From: Polynucleobacter meluiroseus
Lineage (GTDB): Bacteria > Pseudomonadota > Gammaproteobacteria > Burkholderiales > Burkholderiaceae
NCBI GenBank assembly: GCA_945881875.1
Contig: CAMCVH010000005.1
Coordinates: forward strand, 1-64,000
Direction: 5' to 3'
DNA: 64,000 nucleotides
In this document: positions 49,601-53,231 of the stretch, piece after piece
Position numbering within the stretch: position 1 is the first letter of the stretch
Layout: the number at the start of each line of letters is the position of its first letter
The notes under the pieces: generated by a model
The model's database searches: none
The model's input: the letters and a program-made list of their open reading frames with translations, nothing else
Told to the model about the DNA's origin: nothing
Position numbers and translations under genes: made by a program

Positions 49601-50725
49601 TTATTTTTTATTGCGGCGTTGCCTTACACCGTTGGCCAAAATTTCTAAGGTGTTCAATGAATCATCCCAGCCAATACACGCATCAGTAATACTTGTTGCA
49701 TATTTCAGGGCTTTAGGATCATCCTTGCCTGGCGTGAACTTTTGCGCGCCGCCATTGATATGACTCTCAACCATCACGCCAAAAATTTGTTTTGAGCCCG
49801 CAGATAACTGACCAGCAATATCTTTTGCCACTTCAATTTGACGCTCATGTTGTTTGCTAGAGTTGGCATGGGAACAATCAACCATTAAAGAGCCGGGTAA
49901 TTTAGATGCTTCTAACTCGGCACATGATTTTGCAACACTCTCTGCATCGTAATTGGTTGTTTTTCCGCCACGCAAAATAACGTGACAATCACTGTTACCC
50001 TTAGTTTCAACAATCGCCACTTGTCCATTTTTATGAACAGATAAGAAATGGTGAGGTCTACTTGCAGATTGAATAGCATCAGTAGCTATCTTAATGTTGC
50101 CATCTGTGCCATTTTTAAATCCGATTGGAGCAGAAATTCCTGATGCAAGTTCACGGTGAATTTGACTTTCTGTTGTTCTAGCACCAATTGCACCCCAAGA
50201 GATCAAATCGCCAATGTATTGAGGAGAGATGACATCTAAGAACTCACTACCAGCTGGCATACCCAAACGATTGATCTCTATTAAGAGTTGACGAGCCATA
50301 CGCAGACCTTCATCAATACGGTAGCTTTCATCTAGGTAAGGGTCATTGATTAAACCTTTCCAGCCAACAGTTGTGCGAGGTTTTTCAAAATAGACTCGCA
50401 TGACGATTTCAAGATCATCAGCATATTGAGCTCTTAGCGCTAATAATTTGTGAGCGTACTCAAGCGCAGCTTTAGGGTCATGAATTGAGCAAGGTCCAAT
50501 AATGACCAAAAGACGATCATCCTTGCCATGCATGATGTCACGAATCTTTTTACGAGTATCGCCAATCAGCGTTTCAACAGCTGTACCTTGAATTGGAAAG
50601 AAGCGAATGAGATGCTCAGGCGGTGGCAATACCGTGATATTTTGAATACGCGCATCATCTGTTTCAGATGTCTTATCAATGCTGACGTACCAGTTGTCTC
50701 TGTTACTGAGTGCTTTATCAACCAT
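49601..50725 (-). CDS. aroG: 3-deoxy-7-phosphoheptulonate synthase (DAHP synthase, class I)
   Basis: Joins phosphoenolpyruvate and erythrose-4-phosphate as the first step to aromatic amino acids. The 374-residue protein has IGPCSIHDPKAALEYAHKLLAL near residue 91, the KPRTTVGWKG motif near residue 128 and RGGKTTNYDAESV near residue 252. It resembles E. coli AroG/AroF/AroH; which amino acid inhibits it cannot be told by eye. AAGGAG lies 7 bases before the ATG. Upstream on the same strand is an attenuator with an aromatic leader peptide, so expression is likely set by ribosome stalling at aromatic codons. Confidence 0.97.
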   Translation of the reverse strand: MVDKALSNRDNWYVSIDKTSETDDARIQNITVLPPPEHLIRFFPIQGTAVETLIGDTRKKIRDIMHGKDDRLLVIIGPCSIHDPKAALEYAHKLLALRAQYADDLEIVMRVYFEKPRTTVGWKGLINDPYLDESYRIDEGLRMARQLLIEINRLGMPAGSEFLDVISPQYIGDLISWGAIGARTTESQIHRELASGISAPIGFKNGTDGNIKIATDAIQSASRPHHFLSVHKNGQVAIVETKGNSDCHVILRGGKTTNYDAESVAKSCAELEASKLPGSLMVDCSHANSSKQHERQIEVAKDIAGQLSAGSKQIFGVMVESHINGGAQKFTPGKDDPKALKYATSITDACIGWDDSLNTLEILANGVRQRRNKK

Positions 50726-50761
50726 TTCATTAACTCCTTATTACTAGATACCTAAATATGT

Positions 50762-50791
50762 AAAAAAAAACCGCCGTTTGTGTCGGCGGTT
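50762..50791 (-). terminator. Attenuator terminator upstream of aroG
   Basis: On the minus strand AACCGCCG, loop ACACAAA and CGGCGGTT form an 8-bp GC-rich stem directly followed by nine Ts. It sits 36 bases before the aroG start and 19 bases after the leader ORF stop. It is an intrinsic terminator in front of a gene, not behind one, which marks it as an attenuator. Confidence 0.95.
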
Positions 50792-50809
50792 AATTTGAGT
50801 GCAGGAAAC

Positions 50810-50887
50810 TTATGCTTGAATTTCTGCCTCTCGACCGCCTGGGGTTGAGAACCAAAAGTAAAAGAAATATGAGTTATTTGCAGACAT
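50810..50887 (-). CDS. Aromatic leader peptide of the aroG attenuator
   Basis: A 25-residue ORF: MSANNS, then YFFYFWF (residues 7-13, codons TAT TTC TTT TAC TTT TGG TTC), then STPGGREAEIQA and TAA. Seven consecutive aromatic residues are far from chance and are the mark of an attenuation leader sensing Phe, Tyr and Trp together. GGCGGT in the Gly17-Gly18 codons (50834-50839) complements ACCGCC in the 5' arm of the terminator (50785-50790) and so can form the antiterminator. GGTT and AACC at 50843-50853 could form the pause hairpin. There is no ribosome site; the likely -10 places the start point at or beside the ATG. The peptide has no predicted function of its own. Confidence 0.88.
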   Translation of the reverse strand: MSANNSYFFYFWFSTPGGREAEIQA

Positions 50888-50893
50888 GTGATT

Positions 50894-50924
50894 AATGTAG
50901 CACAGTTTTATGGTGATTGATCAA
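50894..50924 (-). promoter_or_regulatory. Putative promoter of the aroG leader
   Basis: On the minus strand TGCTACATT gives an extended -10 (TACATT at 50899-50894), with TTGATC at 50924-50919 as a poor -35 because the spacing is 19. Transcription would start about 6-7 bases downstream, at the leader ATG. The -35 lies inside the end of tldD. Confidence 0.5.
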
Positions 50925-52402
50925 GCTGTGCCACCAACAGTCATATTATTAATTCTAAGTGTTGGTTGACCAACCCCTACAGGCACACTCTGACCATCCT
51001 TGCCGCAAACTCCAATGCCACTGTCTAGACTCATGTCGTTCCCTATCATGCTGATATCTTTAAGGGATTCTGGACCATTACCAATAATGGTTGCACCTTT
51101 AACGGGATATTGAATTTTTCCATTTTCAACCCAATACGCTTCGCTAGCTGAGAAAACAAATTTACCGCTGGTGATATCAACCTGACCACCACCAAAGTTA
51201 ACTGCATAAAGACCTTTTTTAATACTGCTGATGATTTCTTGAGGATCATCTTTACCATTAAGCATATAAGTATTAGTCATTCTCGGCATTGGTAATGATG
51301 CATAGCTTTCACGTCTTGCATTGCCGGTAACTGGCATATTCATTAAGCGTGCATTCAAGCTATCTTGAATATAGCCTTTCAGAATGCCATCTTCAATCAA
51401 AGTGGTGCATTGCGTTGGATTACCTTCGTCATCAATGGACAGCGAACCTCTTCTACCTGCAATAGTGCCATCGTCAACAACTGTTACACCTTTAGCGGCA
51501 ACTCTTTGACCAATTTTTCCTGTAAAGGCAGAGGAGCCCTTGCGGTTGAAGTCACCTTCCAGACCATGTCCAATTGCCTCATGTAAAAGTACTCCCGGCC
51601 AACCAGGACCCAAAACAACTGTCATCGAACCCGCGGGGGCTGGTCTTGAATCTAGATTTACTAAAGCTGATCGAACGGCCTCATCAATCCAGTGATCAAT
51701 TTTCTCTTGAACAAAAAAGTGATAGTCAAAGCGACCACCGCCACCCGATGATCCAACTTCGCGTCGACTGTTTTGCTCTGCAATAACGGTAATTGAAACT
51801 CGAACTAAAGGTCTTATGTCAGCAGCCAATACGCCGTCAGCTCTGGCGACTAAGACAATATCGTGTTCTGCAGCGAGACCTGCCATGACCTGAACAATCC
51901 GTGGATCTTTAGCTTTAGCTTTTCTTTCAATATCCTCTAACAGAGCAATTTTTGCTTTTGCATTAAGGCTATCAAGCGGATTGGCTGATTGATAAAGAGC
52001 ATGTGTTTTAGTAGTAGACCAAGCAGGGCTTATATAAGTTTTATTGTTACTTGCCCCAATTACGCGAGTGGCTTCAGCTGCTTTTTTTAGAGCTGCCGCA
52101 CTGATCTCATCAGAATATGCAAAAGCAGTTTTGTCATGACTTACTGCTCGAACTCCAACACCTTGATCAATGCTGAAGGTGCCAGATTTAACAATACCCT
52201 CTTCTAAGCTCCAAGACTCGTTATAGGTTCTTTGAAAATATAAATCAGCATCATCTAAGTGATGCGTATGCATCAACGCTAAAGTACTTTGTAGATCATT
52301 TTCAGAAATGCCTGCTGGCGCCAGCAAGATATCTTTTGCGATTTTGAGAGTGTCAGCTCTACTTAGGTTGATTGAATTTTCTAAAGCTAAATGTGAATTC
52401 AT
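50921..52402 (-). CDS. tldD: Metalloprotease TldD
   Basis: TldD works with TldE/PmbA in peptide maturation and in degrading unfolded peptides. From MNSHLALENSINL it has 493 residues and contains the zinc motif HEAIGH in VLLHEAIGHGLEGDFNRKGS, preceded by GSMTVVLGPGWPG. A longer reading adds 24 residues but overlaps the upstream nitrilase gene; the chosen ATG begins 7 bases after that gene's stop. The partner tldE/pmbA is not in this window. Confidence 0.93.
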   Translation of the reverse strand: MNSHLALENSINLSRADTLKIAKDILLAPAGISENDLQSTLALMHTHHLDDADLYFQRTYNESWSLEEGIVKSGTFSIDQGVGVRAVSHDKTAFAYSDEISAAALKKAAEATRVIGASNNKTYISPAWSTTKTHALYQSANPLDSLNAKAKIALLEDIERKAKAKDPRIVQVMAGLAAEHDIVLVARADGVLAADIRPLVRVSITVIAEQNSRREVGSSGGGGRFDYHFFVQEKIDHWIDEAVRSALVNLDSRPAPAGSMTVVLGPGWPGVLLHEAIGHGLEGDFNRKGSSAFTGKIGQRVAAKGVTVVDDGTIAGRRGSLSIDDEGNPTQCTTLIEDGILKGYIQDSLNARLMNMPVTGNARRESYASLPMPRMTNTYMLNGKDDPQEIISSIKKGLYAVNFGGGQVDITSGKFVFSASEAYWVENGKIQYPVKGATIIGNGPESLKDISMIGNDMSLDSGIGVCGKDGQSVPVGVGQPTLRINNMTVGGTA

Positions 52403-52409
52403 AGGATTC

Positions 52410-53231
52410 TTATAAAGTGCGGTGTAAAAGAGCGGGTAATTGAGTTCTAACTTGCTGAGTGATGCTTTTGTCAAGAACCCCCATTACAACGCCTGGCCCT
52501 TGAGTTATTTGGGATTTAATTTCACCCCATGGATCTACAAGCATACTCTGTCCCCAAGTAGATCGACCGTTTTCATGTTGTCCACCTTGAGCGCTAGCTA
52601 AAACATAGCATTGATTTTCAATAGCTCGAGCTCTTAATAAGATTTCCCAGTGAGCTTCACCCGTTGTACGAGTAAAAGCTGCTGGAATAATATGGCAGTC
52701 CACTTCGCCCATAGCGCGATAGAGTTCAGGAAAACGAATGTCATAACAAACTGATAAACCAAATTTCCAACTGATGCCATTTTTATTGATAACAAATGAT
52801 TGCGGAATATCGCCTGCTTCAATCGTTCTTGACTCCTGATATTCCTCCTCATCTTTTTTGAATCCAAATAGATGAATCTTGTCATATCTCGAAATAATTT
52901 CACCGCTGGGTGAAAAAACTAGGGTTGAGTTTTTAACTTTATTTTCGACAGTAGCTTTAAGTGGGATAGTTCCTGCTATCAAGTAAATAGCATGTGATTT
53001 TGCAATTGAACTCAAATAGCTCTGAATCGGTCCATGATTAAAATCCTCTTTGATTAAGTTTTTATCAGACTCATGGTGAGCCATTAAGCAAAAATACTCT
53101 GGTAATACGACTAATTCTGCTCCAAGTGCTTTAGCTTCTTGGATAAGTTGCTCTGCATTAGCTAAATTCTTATCAACAGATGGCGTTGAAACCATCTGAA
53201 TGCTAGCAACTCTCAATTGATTAGGCGTCAT
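52410..53231 (-). CDS. Nitrilase-superfamily amidohydrolase (Nit type)
   Basis: A 273-residue C-N hydrolase with the catalytic triad E45 in VLPEYFCL, K118 in RYDKIHLF and C162 in VCYDIRFPELYR. It resembles bacterial Nit1/YbeM-type enzymes that remove deaminated glutathione, which is inference from overall similarity. It is between yhdP and tldD on the same strand with short gaps and is probably co-transcribed with both. Confidence 0.85.
   Translation of the reverse strand: MTPNQLRVASIQMVSTPSVDKNLANAEQLIQEAKALGAELVVLPEYFCLMAHHESDKNLIKEDFNHGPIQSYLSSIAKSHAIYLIAGTIPLKATVENKVKNSTLVFSPSGEIISRYDKIHLFGFKKDEEEYQESRTIEAGDIPQSFVINKNGISWKFGLSVCYDIRFPELYRAMGEVDCHIIPAAFTRTTGEAHWEILLRARAIENQCYVLASAQGGQHENGRSTWGQSMLVDPWGEIKSQITQGPGVVMGVLDKSITQQVRTQLPALLHRTL

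Follow-up and report, generated by a model that had tools for sequence, protein, structure and literature searches.

What controls entry into aromatic amino acid synthesis in Polynucleobacter meluiroseus? The gate of this synthesis is DAHP synthase, and its gene, aroG, lies here behind a short open reading frame with a run of aromatic codons. Control of the E. coli DAHP synthases is the textbook case of repression by TyrR and TrpR. Both repressors are reported (PMC5343134) to be absent from proteobacterial classes other than the gammaproteobacteria, and TrpR (PF01371) was not found in the 97% complete, 1.53 Mb genome studied here by a search that was positive in two of 14 control genomes, including E. 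coli. The original prediction held that a leader peptide ahead of aroG reads the supply of aromatic amino acids and decides between a terminator and an antiterminator. We followed this up in the window, by which we mean the whole stretch of 64,000 nt that was analysed, and in related genomes.

The leader region of aroG

The gene order on the minus strand is tldD, leader, aroG, and the nearest named relatives by aroG are two Polynucleobacter MAGs, L101 (91%) and L102 (89%). The parts of the locus that the argument needs are these:

50921-52429, minus strand: tldD, the upstream neighbour (NCBIfam NF008006)
50894-50902, minus strand: extended -10-like element TGCTACATT, 6 nt upstream of the leader ATG (sequence)
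50810-50887, minus strand: leader ORF of 25 codons, MSANNSYFFYFWFSTPGGREAEIQA (ORF list and orthologous leaders)
50849-50869, minus strand: run of seven aromatic codons, Tyr Phe Phe Tyr Phe Trp Phe, the predicted sensor
50847-50850, minus strand: segment 1, UCUC, partner of GAGA in the predicted protector
50822-50857, minus strand: predicted protector hairpin, full extent (fold)
50834-50839, minus strand: core of segment 2, GGCGGU, the outer antiterminator strand
50829-50832, minus strand: GAGA, either the protector partner of UCUC or part of the inner antiterminator helix
50785-50839, minus strand: extended antiterminator hairpin, GGCGGU...ACCGCC with an inner helix (predicted, -20.4 kcal/mol)
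50785-50790, minus strand: ACCGCC (sequence)
50769-50791, minus strand: intrinsic-terminator-like hairpin AACCGCC...GGCGGTT (fold)
50762-50770, minus strand: T tract of the terminator, nine T (sequence)
50734-50739, minus strand: Shine-Dalgarno-like AAGGAG of aroG (sequence)
49601-50725, minus strand: aroG, encoding DAHP synthase, the first enzyme of the shikimate pathway (NCBIfam TIGR00034, Pfam PF00793)

The two visible elements of the original prediction are in place: a 25-codon ORF with seven consecutive aromatic codons lies on the minus strand between tldD and aroG, and a hairpin (50791-50769) with nine T (50770-50762) stands ahead of the aroG start at 50725. Both sequence and fold identify this hairpin, between the leader ORF and aroG, as intrinsic terminator-like, and the leader folds better than its shuffles (z -4.06, with one of 200 shuffles as good).

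Nowhere else in the 64 kb, on either strand, is there a run of at least five aromatic codons. A first-order Markov simulation gives 1.2 runs of at least five and 0.1 of at least six per 64 kb, and no run of at least seven occurred in 40 simulated windows; the aromatic leader arrangement of the window is not due to chance. This bears on one alternative, namely that the hairpin is an ordinary terminator of tldD, the ORF a chance frame, and nothing is regulated, to which we return with the comparison of relatives.

In the window no Rfam family scores up to its cut-off, not even one of the leader families, and a permissive scan of the leader stretch gives none at half of that value (Leu_leader scored 16.9 bits vs a cut-off of 50). 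Compact conserved hairpins followed by a terminator would also suit a metabolite riboswitch or a T-box on the same leader, but the lack of any Rfam family at cut-off in the window and the fact that the aromatic run is coding, with third-position exchange between TTT and TTC and between TAT and TAC among relatives, make such a sensor barely credible. Eight relatives scanned at E<=1 gave three matches, all below their cut-offs. One candidate, NsiR1 on L026, was a sub-threshold match overlapping the leader terminator and was rejected.

Occurrence of the leader in relatives

The original prediction had proposed comparing aroG upstream regions, and the comparison came out in its favour: ORF and hairpin are kept in relatives, and the GGCGGT and ACCGCC halves coevolve, as described below. 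At the level of sequence, this conservation is what decides that the observation is real. A search for aroG in 60 genomes of the family supplied 30 loci, of which 26, the window included, carried an aromatic leader; it was missing at three loci of the same genus (L002, L003, L004) and at L005. A covariance model, R1, was built from 21 relatives with the window excluded and includes the protector hairpin and the terminator. It recovers the window element at E 8.9e-10 and matches 118 of 300 genomes of the order at E<=0.1, a few of which had supplied training sequences. aroG follows directly downstream of the match in 65 of 70 loci (L031-L100, which include the window itself as L047 and a few repeats of the 30 family loci); the other five matches (L091, L093, L096, L099, L100) lie away from aroG and were left uncounted. 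Loci verified beside aroG span 14 family labels of the order (f1, f3, f4, f8, f10, f11, f12, f13, f20, f23, f30, f39, f43 and f49), in an order search whose labels run to f51. With a wider model, R2, made from 78 sequences, 77 of the 300 order genomes match at E<=0.001, the window included and at least one (G072) away from aroG, and about three quarters of the sampled order genomes are without a match at this threshold.

Among 369 genomes of the class, 14 match at E<=0.01, 11 of these outside the order. Nine of the 11 (G592 and G620 lie outside the nine) were judged except L189, whose flank is truncated: in four (L181, L184, L185 and L186; three from f63, one from f68) the leader stands beside aroG, and the matches in L187, L188, L190 and L191 are away from aroG and were left out of the counts. 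The presence of the leader outside the order of the window may reflect transfer or an older origin.

Of the best 80 of 591 named aroG loci, from Comamonas, Acidovorax, Polaromonas, Variovorax, Hydrogenophaga, Limnohabitans, Rhodoferax and other genera, 71 match at E<=0.1. The nine unmatched loci are five from Polynucleobacter, two from Cupriavidus, L165, which contains no DNA upstream of aroG, and L115 (Ramlibacter MAG, 857-1010), where the leader ORF MRPVPAFFFGYFWFSCAPGGREI is present and the terminator incomplete, which may be due to a deletion or an assembly fault.

An unregulated tldD terminator would fit the position of tldD upstream in 52 of the 71 element-bearing named loci, and also the five of 70 loci in which the model matches away from aroG. 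However, no tldD was found upstream in the other 19 named loci, and neither the seven-codon run, nor the fixed distance of aromatic codons in 143 leaders, nor the coevolution of the antiterminator halves is what a chance frame behind tldD would give, and we regard that explanation as very improbable.

Aromatic codons and their placement

Phe, Tyr and Trp are all present in 101 of the 143 leaders that we could parse; 35 have Phe and Tyr, two Phe and Trp, and five Phe alone, with Trp absent from 40. The 143 come from 156 leaders, 13 having been dropped because the terminator (three) or the leader GGCGG motif (ten) was not parsed. Several of the dropped leaders (e.g. L051, L055, L136) have CCGGCG instead of GGCGG, and CGCCGG in the terminator arm, which looks like a shifted antiterminator outside the counts.

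Measured as distance before GGCGG, the aromatic fraction of the 143 leaders is 60% at 33-35 nt, lies between 71 and 96% in each codon slot from 30-32 to 12-14 nt, and falls to 12% at 9-11 nt and about 1% closer to GGCGG. The last aromatic codon is at least 12 nt from GGCGG in 125 of the 143, 11 nt in 14 and closer in four. The leader frame was picked by aromatic content, a choice that favours no particular end point. Because a ribosome covers about 12 nt past the first base of its A-site codon, the aromatic run stops about where a stalled ribosome would start to cover GGCGG. With this footprint assumed, the control codons appear to be so placed that a stalled ribosome would free segment 2.

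Among 85 leaders, a taxonomically wider set, we counted 382 Phe, 170 Tyr and 55 Trp residues, in an order that differs between leaders. The Phe codons are 253 TTT and 129 TTC, a preference for TTT that is opposite to that of the longest downstream frames (153 TTT, 531 TTC). This TTT bias was seen in the leaders of L006-L098; it may slow ribosomes or simply leave the RNA unpaired.

The dominance of Phe codons and the lack of Trp in 40 of the 143 leaders raise a narrower form of attenuation, in which the unit responds in practice to Phe, or to Phe plus Tyr, instead of to the three together; the Phe-Tyr-Phe leader of Corynebacterium glutamicum aroR is likewise described as answering to Phe and not to Tyr (PMC11802643). 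On the other side, the window and 101 of the 143 leaders contain all three, and the stall codons in the window that would free GGCGGT and cover UCUC are, judged from their coordinates, Tyr, Phe and Trp. Supposing attenuation, we consider the narrower response possible, if rather doubtful.

The stretch after the aromatic run reads L-x-P-L-A-D-R-E in many members of the family. In the window and in relatives such as L043, L073 and L084 it reads W-F-S-x-P-G-G-R-E, in a frame different from PLADRE and with GGCGG and GAGAGG retained, and in L021 and L029 the leader ORF ends within this stretch, again with GAGAGG retained. Behind the run, then, RNA is conserved more than peptide. Seven leader peptides gave no NCBIfam or Pfam match at E<=1. 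Arrest peptides of the kind named after TnaC offer another way for such an ORF to act, in that the nascent peptide would bind a free aromatic amino acid and stall the ribosome. Near-end residues that are common within lineages (PLADREG, PGGREA) would suit such a peptide, but between lineages the frame and the length behind the run change and the RNA stays, two leaders (L021, L029) end inside that stretch, and the order of Phe, Tyr and Trp varies; we think an arrest peptide highly unlikely here.

Alternative RNA structures

The antiterminator shares a strand with the terminator, as both sequence and coevolution indicate, and in the window it is larger than the six GGCGGU/ACCGCC pairs, an inner helix bringing it to -20.4 kcal/mol while the last terminator arm has yet to be made. 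At that stage its predicted probability is 0.99 with a stalled ribosome, 0.82 with the ribosome stalled at the last aromatic codon and 0.99 without a ribosome. A ribosome at the stop codon was mimicked by blocking nt 60-88; the inner helix is then gone, and the outer antiterminator stands at -11.6 kcal/mol with a probability of 0.84. Since the antiterminator wins in every state before the last arm, folding alone cannot separate the on and off states. The complete RNA at equilibrium always prefers the terminator, even with a stalled ribosome (probability 0.98), and antitermination must therefore be kinetic. The ample-tRNA state of the original prediction needs revision on this point: covering of GGCGGT by a ribosome at the stop codon does not hold under the assumed footprint, and it is the inner helix that would be blocked instead, leaving a weaker antiterminator.

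A protector of at least four pairs is foreseen in 139 of the 143 leaders, but also in 1154 of 1430 dinucleotide shuffles (81%). Its mean energy is -13.1 in leaders vs -10.8 in shuffles, and the UCUC/GAGA pairs are invariant in 21 of 21 family sequences. In these fold models, a protector hairpin that would compete for the GAGA strand is weakly supported.

Pair counts in the close-family alignment, A2, were uninformative because its arms hardly vary, and coevolution was tested on a wider set; the antiterminator pairs had no part in the model used to collect the sequences. Pairing at the base next to GGCGG occurs in 107 of 142 sequences, vs 84.9 +/- 3.0 after shuffling (0 of 2000 shuffles as high). 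At the second base 103 pair, vs 97.8 (26 of 2000), and at the third 60, vs 43.7 (0 of 2000). Cognate antiterminator halves fold at -15.47 kcal/mol vs -13.59 for permuted ones (138 sequences, 0 of 5000 permutations). Because the sequences are related, the significance from shuffles is overstated; with one representative for each of 13 families, drawn from 77 labelled sequences (the named loci, being unlabelled, were left out), cognate halves were better in 1000 of 1000 draws, with a mean difference of -1.98, and 898 draws gave p<=0.05. At the median, 27% of foreign partner halves fold better than the cognate one, and the effect is therefore clear but moderate. At the base beside GGCGG, U-A is common in f1, f4, f11 and f13 and C-G in f49, f3 and f10; this base is unpaired in the window (A opposite G) and in all five parsed f8 sequences, and exceptions occur in other families too. 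Conservation, coevolution and geometry thus all back the pairing of GGCGGT with ACCGCC and the aromatic-codon sensor that the original prediction had put forward.

The start of the leader

Not one of the 143 leaders reaches -6 kcal/mol with the anti-Shine-Dalgarno sequence. The same holds in the 85-leader set, where the first ATG of the downstream gene does so in 55% of 77 cases; 8.7% of random positions reach this value. TANNNT stands 6-9 nt upstream of the leader ATG in 95 of the 143 leaders, and its extended form, TGNTANNNT, in 85, when ten other windows of equal width hold TANNNT in one to seven leaders. The 143-leader set is rich in Comamonadaceae; without the named loci (85 leaders) the numbers are 36 for TANNNT and 24 for the extended form. 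The lack of a Shine-Dalgarno sequence and the closeness of a -10 box to the ATG thus predict a leaderless mRNA, and where this -10 is present the first transcribed base would lie at the ATG or next to it. For the leader promoter of the window, no convincing -35 was seen and a generic promoter scan made no call; the end of tldD overlaps the stretch expected to hold the -35. In part of f1 (L016, L031, L033 and similar loci), TATAAAG-like stretches about 40 nt before the leader ATG take the place of the adjacent -10, likewise without a Shine-Dalgarno sequence.

Proposed mechanism

In its sequence the element is built like a classical leader-peptide attenuator and has most of the features of one: an ORF with control codons, a terminator, an antiterminator that shares a strand with it, and the placement of the codons. 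What the DNA itself shows is the ORF, hairpins that can fold, the conservation of these parts, coevolution between the antiterminator halves, the geometry of the codons and the spacing of the promoter. We consider it very probable that the unit is a ribosome-mediated transcription attenuator, with aroG likely on when charged Phe-, Tyr- or Trp-tRNA is scarce. For the cell, we infer the following course of transcription start, translation, stalling and termination. RNA polymerase would begin at the leader ATG or next to it, and a ribosome would load on the 5' end of this leaderless RNA. Under shortage of an aromatic tRNA, the ribosome would halt in the run and cover the UCUC of the protector, leaving GGCGGU and the stretch that follows free to pair with the ACCGCC strand; with this antiterminator formed, the terminator would come too late and aroG would be transcribed. 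When the tRNAs are plentiful, the ribosome would pass GGCGGU and reach the stop codon, hindering the antiterminator, and the terminator would form.

If it works as predicted, the unit governs DAHP synthase in many families of betaproteobacteria and lets up to three end products act together at the step they share.

Relation to known attenuators

One leader that carries codons for several end products is known from the ilvGMEDA and thr operons of gammaproteobacteria, which resemble the window in this respect and serve the branched-chain amino acids or Thr and Ile. The closest precedent, as described in PMC11802643, is aroR-aroF of C. glutamicum, in which a Phe-Tyr-Phe leader attenuates on Phe limitation (Neshat et al., 2014, cited there); an attenuator in the aroF leader of this species has also been predicted (PMC4046766). 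As in the window, a leader peptide with aromatic codons precedes a DAHP synthase gene under ribosome-mediated attenuation, whereas the host is an actinobacterium and no Trp is mentioned in its description; the likeness is one of described arrangement. The pheA, pheST and trpE attenuators of E. coli, as listed in PMC11802643, share the order of control-codon ORF, terminator and regulated gene, but each reads one amino acid and lies outside the pathway entry.

For Acholeplasma aroF, the uORFC-13-1 motif (24 sequences, from Acholeplasma and environmental DNA only; PMC8632094) is a proposed uORF with Phe codon(s) and a terminator before a DAHP synthase gene, and it has at least one Phe codon, in contrast to the seven-codon run of the window. 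A leaderless attenuator ORF, such as we predict here, is described for rnTrpL/peTrpL of Sinorhizobium meliloti, where the 5' end of the attenuator RNA is the ATG of the leader ORF (PMC7298713); that system, unlike the window, is a trpE(G) attenuator with a 14-residue leader peptide, in an alphaproteobacterium. A Tyr attenuator is also listed for Shewanella aroF with a 1980 E. coli reference (PMC2659441). Neither aroG nor aroF is named in the available part of the main text of Naville and Gautheret (2010; PMC2965389). The original prediction had contrasted attenuation at a DAHP synthase gene with the repressor control of E. coli; the C. glutamicum case gives such attenuation a precedent, and for betaproteobacterial aroG there was no report among the open-literature matches listed, which leaves priority uncertain.

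Loss within Polynucleobacter

By coordinates, 18 of 101 genomes of the genus have the element beside aroG, 11 with the AroG type of the window and seven of a second group, in which two of the seven leaders were read (for example MNSGKLYFFSFWISDLAVER in L206). The majority of the genomes sampled from the genus do without the element, which is therefore dispensable. A scripted analysis of leader-less loci covered 19 of the 83 genomes without the element beside aroG, namely the three loci of the family search and the sixteen with the best AroG scores (L002-L004, L202-L205, L207-L210, L212-L219). In every one of the 19, a -10-like TANNNT stands exactly 6 nt upstream of the aroG ATG; pairing with the anti-Shine-Dalgarno sequence falls short of -6 kcal/mol in each, and the gap between tldD and aroG is 18-31 nt. 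Among 13 leader-bearing loci, none has such a -10 within 20 nt of the aroG ATG, and eight reach -6 kcal/mol. In the leader-less clade, which has lost the terminator too, aroG is predicted to be a leaderless biosynthetic gene, and the simplest reading is that one deletion joined the leader promoter, or its successor, to aroG.

Put at its widest, our proposal is that a pan-aromatic RNA switch, read by ribosomes on a leaderless mRNA, replaces TyrR and TrpR at the entry of the shikimate pathway across much of the Betaproteobacteria, and that Polynucleobacter lost it a single time through a deletion fusing promoter and aroG, leaving aroG leaderless and without this control; we are evenly divided on whether this holds as a whole. 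With its predicted leaderless start, the sharp codon boundary at about 12 nt and a natural clade of loss within Polynucleobacter, the mechanism lends itself to direct tests.

In an AroG tree of 51 rows, rooted at midpoint only, the 24 Polynucleobacter rows without a leader group in a single clade (100/100, branch 0.25). The second Polynucleobacter group with leaders falls outside this clade, and the clade of the window is its sister (94/84). The leader label takes two changes on the tree, the other being at a distant Cupriavidus copy.
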